DNA of 51,225 nucleotides from Agathobacter sp. (GTDB lineage Bacteria > Bacillota > Clostridia > Lachnospirales > Lachnospiraceae): NCBI GenBank assembly GCA_017623935.1, contig JAGAOC010000017.1:1-51225 (forward strand), read 5' to 3'. Positions 28,024 to 42,682 of the stretch are shown here, one piece after another. The position numbers were made by a program, and so were the translations under genes. Position 1 is the first letter of the stretch, and each line of letters starts with the position of its first letter. A model generated the notes under the pieces. The model worked only from the letters and a program-made list of their open reading frames with translations. It did no database searches and was not told the origin of the DNA.

Positions 28024-28051
28024 TTGATTTTTCTGACAGATTGAGTATAAT
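28024..28051 (+). promoter_or_regulatory. Promoter of the structured RNA / PBECR4 module
   Basis: TTGATT (28024-28029), a 16-bp spacer and a perfect TATAAT (28046-28051). Transcription would start near 28057-28059, just before the first RNA hairpin. Confidence 0.6.
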
Positions 28052-28056
28052 AAAAG

Positions 28057-28285
28057 TAGAAACAGAGATGTTTCCGATGTAAGAGCATCGTTAAAAGTTG
28101 GGCTGCAGATGGAGCAGGATAAAATTTCCATCTCGTTAGATGTCTTAACTGGGCATCGAGCCTGGCAGCTTGGATAAAGTTGTAGTCCACGTGGGGGACT
28201 TAATGATTTCCACGTCGTTAGGGGTATCATAACTGGGTACCGAGGCTGACAACCAGCAGAAAACTCTTTTTATAAGAAATTCTTT
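28057..28285 (+). ncRNA. Tandem three-stem structured RNA, unknown family
   Basis: Two copies of the same fold follow each other. Module A: outer stem GCTGC 28102-28106 / GCAGC 28165-28169; P1 AGATGGA 28107-28113 / TCCATCT 28127-28133 with 13-nt loop; joint CGTTA; P2 GATG 28139-28142 / CATC 28154-28157. Module B: outer stem GTTGT 28179-28183 / ACAAC 28249-28253; P1 ACGTGGG 28189-28195 / TCCACGT 28209-28215 with 13-nt loop; joint CGTTA; P2 GGTA 28223-28226 / TACC 28238-28241. Helix sequences differ completely, yet pairing is kept; the P2 loops (TCTTAACTGGG and TCATAACTGGG), the CGTTA joint and the 7-nt GAGCCTG/GAGGCTG joint stay almost the same. A degenerate third unit precedes (CGATG/CATCG then TTA, 28075-28093). 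I do not recognise a known riboswitch. The 3' end is uncertain. Confidence 0.7.
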
Positions 28286-28314
28286 GAGGAGTGTGCATCG
28301 TCACACTCCTCTTT
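28286..28314 (+). terminator. Attenuator-like hairpin between RNA and PBECR4 gene
   Basis: A perfect 10-bp stem (GAGGAGTGTG 28286-28295, CACACTCCTC 28302-28311) with only three T afterwards. The 3' arm CTCCTC can also pair with the GAGGTG ribosome-binding site at 28321-28326. The hairpin may therefore act as a leaky terminator or as a switch on translation of the following gene. Confidence 0.65.
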
Positions 28315-28329
28315 ACGTATGAGGTGTAT

Positions 28330-28959
28330 GTGGCAACTAAGACAGATAAGAAAAATGCAATACGACAGGATATTATAATTTCGGCAGGAGTATATAGTCA
28401 GAATTTGGCAGGTAAAGCATTCCTTTATGTATATGGCAATGAGTTTTTTGAAGTATCCTTTCCGGTTGATAATTTTTTGCACTTAACAGGTGTAGAAACA
28501 AAATTATCGGCGAAGGATTTTTATAAAAATGCTAAGAAGGGAAAACTTTCAAATAACCAGTTTTATTTTGATGCAAGGCATCCATATGCAAATGCCAAAA
28601 AGAAATTGCCATGCTTGAAAAGATTACCAGAACTTACGAATGATATGGTATGTATTCTTAAGGATATGCAGACTGTGACAATTATATACAAATTAAGCGT
28701 AACGAATCTAGAGTTTACATTAGGATTGACTGAAAATGTAGATAATCAAGGAAAAAAGATTAACGACTTTTTCCTTCCGATGTCTTTGAGAGTAGAAGAT
28801 ACCTCTATTGACAAAAGTAATGATGGTGAAATAGTTGATTTTATATTTGCAAAAGACGCGAGCAAAGCTAAGTATGATACTTTGCTAGTGGAGGATAAGC
28901 GTAAAACCATTCCGGAATGTGTAAAATATCTGTTAAGCGATAAATTTAGTGAAAAATAA
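28330..28959 (+). CDS. PBECR4-like (BECR-fold nuclease-type) protein
   Basis: A 209-residue protein, AT-rich with codon use unlike its neighbours. It resembles the PBECR4 family (phage-Barnase-EndoU-ColicinE5/D-RelE-like nuclease 4). Conserved-looking parts are the FEVSFPVDNFLHLTGVETKLSAKDFY block (about residues 36-61), the FDARHPYANAKKKL block (about 78-91), FTLGLTENVDNQG and the LRVED / VDFIFAKD end. I start at GTG 28330 because GAGGTG lies just before it; a longer frame would begin inside the upstream hairpin. No TM helix or signal is present. It is alone between egsA and ychF. If it is a nuclease, the structured RNA upstream is a candidate regulator or antitoxin. Family assignment is from memory of the pattern and needs a profile search. 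Confidence 0.6.
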   Translation: MATKTDKKNAIRQDIIISAGVYSQNLAGKAFLYVYGNEFFEVSFPVDNFLHLTGVETKLSAKDFYKNAKKGKLSNNQFYFDARHPYANAKKKLPCLKRLPELTNDMVCILKDMQTVTIIYKLSVTNLEFTLGLTENVDNQGKKINDFFLPMSLRVEDTSIDKSNDGEIVDFIFAKDASKAKYDTLLVEDKRKTIPECVKYLLSDKFSEK

Positions 28960-39154: not shown

Positions 39155-39227
39155 GGGATCTTAGCTCAGCTGGGAGAGCATCTGCCTTACAAGCAGAGGG
39201 TCACAGGTTCGAGCCCTGTAGGTCCCA
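39155..39227 (+). tRNA. tRNA-Val (anticodon TAC)
   Basis: A 73-nt tRNA. The acceptor stem GGGATCT pairs with AGGTCCC, discriminator base A at 39227. The D arm is AGCTCAGCTGGGAGAGC, the anticodon loop CTTACAA gives TAC (Val), and the T arm contains GGTTCGAGCC. CCA is not encoded. It is followed by tRNA-Met 36 bp on. Confidence 0.96.
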
Positions 39228-39263: not shown

Positions 39264-39337
39264 GGCGAGATAGCTCAGTTGGCTAGAGCACACGGTTCAT
39301 ACCCGTGGTGTCGAGGGTTCGAATCCCCCTCTCGCTA
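39264..39337 (+). tRNA. tRNA-Met (anticodon CAT, elongator type)
   Basis: A 74-nt tRNA. Acceptor GGCGAGA pairs with TCTCGCT (first pair G-U), discriminator A at 39337. Anticodon loop TTCATAC gives CAT. The T arm has GGTTCGAATCC. It lacks the mismatched first pair (C-A) and the three G-C pairs at the foot of the anticodon stem expected for initiator tRNA, so I call it elongator Met; a tRNA-Ile2 with lysidine cannot be fully excluded. CCA is not encoded. Confidence 0.93.
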
Positions 39338-42439: not shown

Positions 42440-42682
42440 ATTGAATAAAGGCTTTGAATGGAAAGAGTAGAAGAATAGAAGGATGGTAGAGAGAGACTGT
42501 CACTGGCTGAAAGCAGTTTTCATCCCGGTTCTTTGAAGTGCGTCCAGGAGCTGATCTGGTGAACTCTAGTAGCCAGGTACGTTTCGCACACGTTACGTGT
42601 ATGAGAAGAAGCATTGTGCTTGAATTAGAGTGGAACCACGGATTATTTCGTCTCTATGGAGATGAAATAGTCCTTTTTTGTT
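42440..42682 (+). promoter_or_regulatory. T-box leader, cysteine-specific (TGC specifier)
   Basis: The leader carries a stem I region with GGATGGTAGAGAG, then a specifier loop GAAGTGCGTCC whose codon TGC (42539-42541) is Cys. The T-box sequence AGAGTGGAACCACG lies at 42627-42640. A terminator stem (GGATTATTTCGTCTC 42640-42654, GAGATGAAATAGTCC 42659-42673) and T-run follow. Uncharged tRNA-Cys should favour the antiterminator and turn on cysE-cysS. Stem I edges are approximate. Confidence 0.93.

Follow-up and report, generated by a model that had tools for sequence, protein, structure and literature searches.

The window, by which we mean the whole stretch of 51,225 nucleotides of DNA of the gut bacterium Agathobacter sp. 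that was analysed (contig JAGAOC010000017.1), carries on its forward strand, at 28024-28959, a promoter-like site, an RNA of ~195 nt with two units, a predicted hairpin terminator and the gene for a predicted PBECR4 (BECR-type) nuclease, in this order. The locus is flanked on one side by an Fe-ADH_2-type (iron-containing-alcohol-dehydrogenase-type) gene and on the other by a gene that we take to be ychF. A first-pass annotation had placed a promoter, an RNA, a hairpin and a gene here, and this layout holds: site 28024-28051, RNA units 28103-28241, hairpin 28286-28311 and ORF 28330-28959. The site itself is sigma-70-like (TTGATT-16 nt-TATAAT, 10/12 consensus); because the promoter scan was near chance (8 sites versus 6.0 in shuffles), its support comes from relatives, in which, by eye, the promoter-like sequence recurs. 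The module is small and apparently mobile.

The window also contains two tRNAs (39155-39227 and 39264-39337) and a T-box leader RNA (121.5 bits, 42445-42658), and its source genome (G000) has three Abi_2 genes, on contigs C57, C85 and C16. In a congener (L159, genome G564) a RelB/ParE-type pair is found upstream of ychF at 2301-2895, which suggests that this spot may favour insertions of toxin-antitoxin (TA) genes.

The PBECR4 protein

The gene at 28330-28959 (+ strand) encodes 209 amino acids from a GTG start. The earlier description of the product as PBECR4-like is borne out by a match to Pfam PBECR4 (PF18813) of 107.5 bits (cut-off 27, E 1.4e-30); the protein also matches phrog_18856. PF18813 matches all 30 aligned PBECR4 relatives, from which L014 was excluded, as from all protein work, since its frame is broken. 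The histidine at position 51 is kept in 30/30 of these proteins, and the column of Ser152 holds Ser or Thr in 27/30, the exceptions being L020, L114 and L027. The presence of His51 and Ser152 fits the active-site pattern of a His plus a Ser/Thr given for PBECR domains in the accessible text of Iyer et al. 2017 (PMC5512222). PBECR4 was the sole match of the window protein in Pfam, NCBIfam and PADLOC, a PDB sequence search returned one match at chance level, and PADLOC gave nothing useful on the 30 proteins of the set. The BECR fold of the window protein is thus a prediction that derives from Pfam.

A pseudoknotted RNA of two units

The RNA, which we call kind I, has a 5' hairpin with a GNRA-type tetraloop (H0, 28059-28074, read by eye from the 17-sequence alignment described below) and a second hairpin H1 (28075-28090, CGATG/CATCG; 100% paired, 3 pairs changed on both sides), whose loop AAGAG (28081-28085) pairs with tail T3 (CTCTT, 28264-28268; from the 17-sequence alignment and the comparison of loops and tails). 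Tail T1 (GTTG, 28097-28100) has as its partner the loop CAAC (28250-28253) of hairpin H3 (28245-28257, GCTG-ACAAC-CAGC, a helix of the 22-sequence alignment), and this pairing is 100% kept. Between these elements lie the two units. In unit 1, a pseudoknot at 28103-28133 (stem 1 CTGC/GCAG, 96.6% paired; stem 2 AGATGGA/TCCATCT, 93.3% with 6 both-sided pairs) is followed by hairpin P2a at 28139-28157 (6 bp, 7-nt loop; 96.2%, 5 both-sided pairs). A junction hairpin CAGCT/AGTTG (28166-28182; 95.5%, 4 both-sided pairs) leads to unit 2, with a pseudoknot at 28184-28215 (stem 1 AGTCC/GGACT, 96.3%; stem 2 ACGTGG/CCACGT, 89.7% with 5 both-sided pairs) and hairpin P2b at 28223-28241 (99.2%, 4 both-sided pairs). 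In the predicted fold each unit combines a pseudoknot of the H type with a hairpin, and long-range pairs between loops and tails close the structure; both pseudoknot stems are kept in both units across 22 sequences.

The first-pass annotation had seen two copies of a three-stem RNA. Two related units are indeed present, and part of the secondary structure proposed for them was wrong. The supposed outer stems are paired in only 76.6% of cells with 0 both-sided changes (22 sequences), and 28166-28170 pairs with 28178-28182 instead; what was described as P1, with its loop of 13 nt, corresponds to stem 2 of the H-type pseudoknot, and P2 has a 6-bp stem and a 7-nt loop rather than a loop of 11 nt. 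The RNA also includes hairpin 28075-28090, hairpin 28245-28257 and the tail at 28264-28268. The CGTTA joint taken to be common to the copies is not conserved in the 17-sequence alignment, and a pseudoknot between CGTTA and TAAC, also not kept there, was rejected. Tandem Repeats Finder detected no sequence-level repeat in the window RNA: the resemblance between the kind I units lies more in their structure than in their sequence. Rfam gave no match here at gathering, to a known riboswitch, a mobile RNA or any other family; with E up to 10 there were five matches, all below their cut-offs, the best with E 1.2.

Covariation

The earlier claim that paired changes point to selection on structure is strongly supported by the relatives. 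When 17 sequences were aligned with MAFFT without structural guidance, the 67 pairs of the fold were paired in 99.4% of cells and 13 of them had changed on both sides, against a shuffle mean of 3.2 (0/500 shuffles as high); structures slid along the alignment are 35-52% paired. In a model-fitted alignment of 22 sequences, 52 pairs are 96.3% paired, with a both-sided change in 33 (shuffle mean 20.9, 0/500 as high; slid structures 28-48% paired); here the model imposes the nested helices, whereas stem 1 of the pseudoknots and the T1-L3 pairing are left free. Of 22 loci where close kind I relatives occur, the 17-sequence alignments (A1/A2) include 17 and omit L046-L049 and L052 as incomplete; the other alignment (A8) consists of 22 chosen sequences from which close near-copies were omitted. 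H1, T1-L3, stem 1 of both pseudoknots and H3 are invariant in the 17-sequence set and hence uninformative there. In the 22-sequence set every helix shows a both-sided change in one pair or more. T1-L3 reads GCUG/CAGC in place of GUUG/CAAC in 4/22 sequences, one pair having changed on both sides. The H1 loop and the last tail co-vary, as AAGAG/CTCTT, TAAGAG/CTCTTA, AGCGG/CCGCT (L116) and GGCG/CGCC (L080); in five diverged sequences they match over only 3 bp, a length that chance can give, and L078, which is without PBECR4, has no Watson-Crick pairing between them.

A hairpin between RNA and gene

The hairpin at 28286-28311 (+ strand) has 10 bp and a short U run, and in the 17-sequence alignment it is 100% paired with 4 both-sided pairs. 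A terminator consensus scan gave it no score. We compared the best 36-nt hairpin within -108 to -8 of the start codon between PBECR4 genes and control ORFs of one genome (G269) called by a simple script. A hairpin of -10 kcal/mol or lower precedes 56/57 PBECR4 starts (44/44 of a first set and 12/13 added ones) versus 97/272 control ORFs, and one of -14 kcal/mol or lower precedes 50/57 (39/44 and 11/13) versus 30/272. The two weak hairpins both belong to added starts, one in L025 (-10.6), where no RNA lies upstream, and the other in phage phi1605 (L126, -9.3). The terminator-like element at 28286-28311 is thus a predicted intrinsic terminator between the RNA and the toxin gene.

An RNA in a 5' leader with a terminator-like hairpin could also be a riboswitch or attenuator that acts in cis only, sensing a ligand or a protein and switching the terminator without ever acting on the nuclease. 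By eye, an antiterminator could form between ACTCTTT (28262-28268) and the GAGGAGT stretch of the hairpin. However, in L041 the hairpin has changed and ACTCTT has not, and antitermination was therefore rejected as the reason for the invariance of ACTCTT.

RNA and gene state among close relatives

Searching genome contigs with the window protein yielded 21 loci. Within 420 nt upstream of the gene, 16/21 have the two-unit RNA, three (L046-L048) a single hybrid unit, one (L049) a fragment and one (L052) none. The single hybrid units resemble deletions by recombination between like loops of the two units, and the genes behind them are all broken. The full two-unit RNA is present at 13/13 loci with a near-full gene (a set that includes L043, with 197 aa) and at 3/8 with a broken gene (L044, L050, L051), a difference (Fisher p 0.0028) that is only indicative because the loci are related and many were assembled from metagenomes, so that some breaks may be assembly errors. 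In the nine loci compared, the RNA is more conserved (identity 0.79-0.96) than the coding DNA (0.67-0.80), in 9/9 cases. The upstream flanks look unrelated: loosely aligned end to end over 550 nt, with no baseline for comparison, they have an identity of 0.60-0.66.

Genes without the RNA, which would weaken the link, do not occur among these near-full genes; among more distant PBECR4 genes other RNA kinds take its place, and one (G249, 1/41) has none upstream. Broken genes with a complete RNA occur, and never, in the 21 loci, a near-full gene with an incomplete kind I RNA, which is the pattern of an antitoxin. The same observation argues against an RNA-guided or RNA-activated nuclease, for which the RNA would be a cofactor that directs PBECR4 to its targets and not an inhibitor. 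RNA and protein do co-diversify, as set out below, and AbiF has been described as kin of Cas13 in the available portions of PMC12165695 and PMC12373285, both of which would suit a guided enzyme; but no variable spacer-like stretch was seen in the 17-sequence alignment, and we regard this explanation as very improbable.

The kind I RNA model R1 was found in 15/397 genomes of the family. A wider model (R3) matched six places in 295 genomes of the order, five of them real by inspection; the sixth (L157) lies inside a gene, was rejected and is excluded from the kind I counts. An antisense match in L039 was likewise left aside. A viral contig (L121) also has a kind I RNA with PBECR4. Just before that module, and before PBECR4 in L027, lies a like stretch (CTCTGCTGCGGAGAG...ATGAGCAGAATAAATT), possibly another RNA family. 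Kind I RNA without PBECR4 behind it is found in L071, L073, L077, L078 and L155. Complete RNAs without a gene (L071, L073, L077, L155) speak against regulation in cis only, as do the genes behind the kind I places that we read, which are PBECR4 or its remains, one Abi_2 or none that is consistent, and not a metabolic set.

Three kinds of RNA precede PBECR4 genes

In the 295 genomes of the order PF18813 has 41 matches, in 32 genomes. A model-supported RNA lies 52-169 nt upstream on the same strand in 31/41 (kind I 3, a second kind, kind II, 18, and drum RNA 10), a count that includes fragments and one gene with two stops. Structured RNAs thus recur before PBECR4 genes, and the link of the covarying RNA to such a gene in an order like that of type III TA systems, as first proposed, is supported. 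Two of the ten matches without a model-supported RNA are at contig edges (L018, L026), and at seven a hairpin and a stretch resembling RNA were recognised only by eye (L022, L024, L027, L028, L029, L030, L031), L029 scoring no more than 12.2 bits with the kind II model R2. In L025 (G249) nothing was recognised upstream of the PBECR4 gene, and a kind II RNA (L150) lies ~290 nt downstream instead. In L024 and L031 repeats with GGTCGG..GAGACC stand before PBECR4, possibly a fourth RNA kind.

In kind II RNA all 33 pairs can form in each of 7 sequences, and 13 show both-sided changes (shuffles 7.4, 0/500 as high); the number of further pair types was not above shuffles (456/500). These figures concern 7/10 collected sequences, as L008 and L111 were misaligned and L012 is without a clear first hairpin. 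The kind II model found 27 places, 18 of them upstream of a PBECR4 match. At others PBECR4 is broken or absent (L130, L137, L142, L143, L146), one is at a contig end (L145) and one is a second copy upstream of another (L153). In L127 (G266:C1:2370782) a complete kind II RNA has behind it a short ORF and then, in place of PBECR4, a gene that matches PBECR2 (27.3 bits, cut-off 27.1). On the - strand of L005 the kind II RNA at 2173-2299 has a Clostridiales-1 RNA (RF01699, 133 bits, 2453-2620) a short way upstream of it. Kinds I and II both consist of two structural units, and both are unmatched by Rfam in this analysis. A search for sequence kinship between them was negative: R1 matched none of 11 kind II loci, and in four kind I sources (window, L121, L080, L078) R2 had no match at the RNA.

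Drum RNA (RF02958) passes gathering in 6/20 PBECR4 loci scanned. In the 295 genomes it has 13 places, two of them below gathering, and 10/13 lie within 450 nt upstream of a PBECR4 match; it is not a tandem array. The drum RNA of G083 precedes a 53-aa broken PBECR4 start, that of L061 (G277:C1:313100) stands alone with no PBECR4 behind, and the third place without a match (G214) is below gathering.

Outside the order, drum RNA at gathering precedes PBECR4 on two Enterococcus plasmids (L122, typed conjugative, and L123) and a Streptococcus suis plasmid (L124), and Erysipelothrix phage phi1605 has kind II RNA with PBECR4. This recurring gene order in other bacteria suggests a role for drum RNA. 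Two more genes on plasmids (L120, L125) are preceded, as judged by eye, by RNA-like sequence with a hairpin; neither has an R1 or R2 match and L125 has no Rfam match. A viral-contig scan with L016 and phage searches with the window protein and a drum-linked protein were unproductive.

One could assume that the RNA is a mobile RNA or a leader with no relation to the nuclease, carried along beside its gene, given that the flanks differ between relatives and that 14/45 RNA places have no PBECR4 match within 450 nt downstream (drum 3/13, kind II 9/27, kind I 2/5). However, the 31/41 matches, the three RNA kinds, the constant order and the spacing of 52-169 nt make mere co-travelling scarcely plausible. 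On the tree of 30 PBECR4 proteins the RNA labels require 8 changes (minimum 7, shuffled mean 17.8, 0/200 as low); drum needs two changes because two rows labelled drum-like by eye fall among drum rows. Kind II forms one group (support 96/87), and kind I one group with weak support (72/41). The RNA kind follows the nuclease clade, that is, RNA and nuclease have co-diversified, which also tells against regulation in cis only.

A kind I RNA before an AbiF gene

In L080 an Abi_2 gene is preceded, at a distance of 131 nt, by a diverged kind I RNA, and by eye there is a hairpin in the interval; the RNA scores 40.3 bits with R1 and 112 with R3, a model that includes L080 itself. It is the sole Abi_2 case among the kind I places read, and since R1 applied to 30 further Abi_2 loci gave one chance-level match and no such RNA, it remains one case. 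In the accessible text of PMC12373285, the Clostridioides difficile RNA RCd22, upstream of AbiF, represses it by termination and neutralises AbiF by binding, in cis and in trans. This AbiF RNA acts partly in cis, which is in keeping with a cis-acting leader. Nevertheless, given the agreement between RNA kind and nuclease clade, the loci that have the RNA alone and the single occurrence of the fold in front of an AbiF gene, a riboswitch-like regulator, initially ranked as an equal alternative, is now less likely, and we consider a purely cis-acting RNA unlikely.

A toxin-antitoxin interpretation

We consider it likely that the module is a type III-like toxin-antitoxin system with a BECR-type nuclease as the toxin, in which the upstream RNA probably holds the predicted nuclease in check as an RNA antitoxin. 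A single promoter would drive the pseudoknotted RNA, and most transcripts would end at the hairpin before the gene, so that, as we propose, the RNA would be made in excess; the PBECR4 mRNA would arise from leaky read-through. The folded RNA, or units processed from it, would bind the nuclease and keep it off. A disturbance of the RNA or its transcription, of which a phage could be the cause, would set the nuclease free to cleave RNA of the cell, and growth would stop. The excess of RNA, the nuclease activity and toxicity of the protein, its binding and inhibition by the RNA, and phage defence are what we infer from the conserved RNA fold, the gene order, the hairpin, the linkage and co-diversification of RNA and nuclease, and the complete RNA found with near-full genes.

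In a wider interpretation, for and against which we see the balance as about even, PBECR4 would be a whole class of RNA-neutralised toxins with at least three covarying RNA families (kind I, kind II and drum). Kinds I and II would share a closed topology, in which the first hairpin has its loop paired to the last tail, and the last hairpin its loop to the first tail, and scaffolds would be swapped among unrelated nucleases (BECR, HEPN/AbiF, perhaps PBECR2), so that RNA antitoxins would form a modular platform. If true, RNA-antitoxin systems would be extended by a toxin fold new to them and by two RNA families that are also new, drum RNA RF02958 would have a proposed function, and BECR nucleases would be linked to the AbiF line, itself tied to Cas13.

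Comparison with known systems

Type III TA systems have the order RNA-terminator-toxin and pseudoknotted RNA units. In the descriptions of ToxIN, CptIN and TenpIN available to us this architecture is that of the window, where, as in those systems, a structured RNA lies directly upstream of the gene, here that of a putative toxin, on the same strand. The libraries of Pfam, NCBIfam and PADLOC hold ToxN-type models, and at the sequence level of these three the window protein shows no homology to ToxN, CptN or TenpN. The units of the window RNA, moreover, are structural and not sequence repeats. Drum RNA resembles the window RNA in its position before PBECR4 genes, but those belong to another clade, and the window RNA has no drum match in Rfam at gathering or with E up to 10.

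The window protein shares its domain group and the His plus Ser/Thr pattern with the PBECR domains of polyvalent proteins, which the accessible text of PMC5512222 treats as effectors of phages and conjugative elements, with no mention there of an upstream RNA. In a literature text search, outside which most subscription papers and preprints lie, neither PBECR4 nor drum was tied to toxin-antitoxin systems in the searchable text (including PMC5512222, PMC9403866, PMC12373285 and PMC12165695).

The abiF RNA family (RF03085) had no match in the window or the loci scanned, an absence that says little because its model passes in merely 1/20 Abi_2 loci. In its layout the window is nevertheless like AbiF with RCd22, which in the available part of PMC12373285 comprises a promoter, a structured RNA of two motifs, a terminator and a toxin gene, with two-step control of AbiF; the window has the same arrangement with PBECR4, another protein family, in place of Abi_2.
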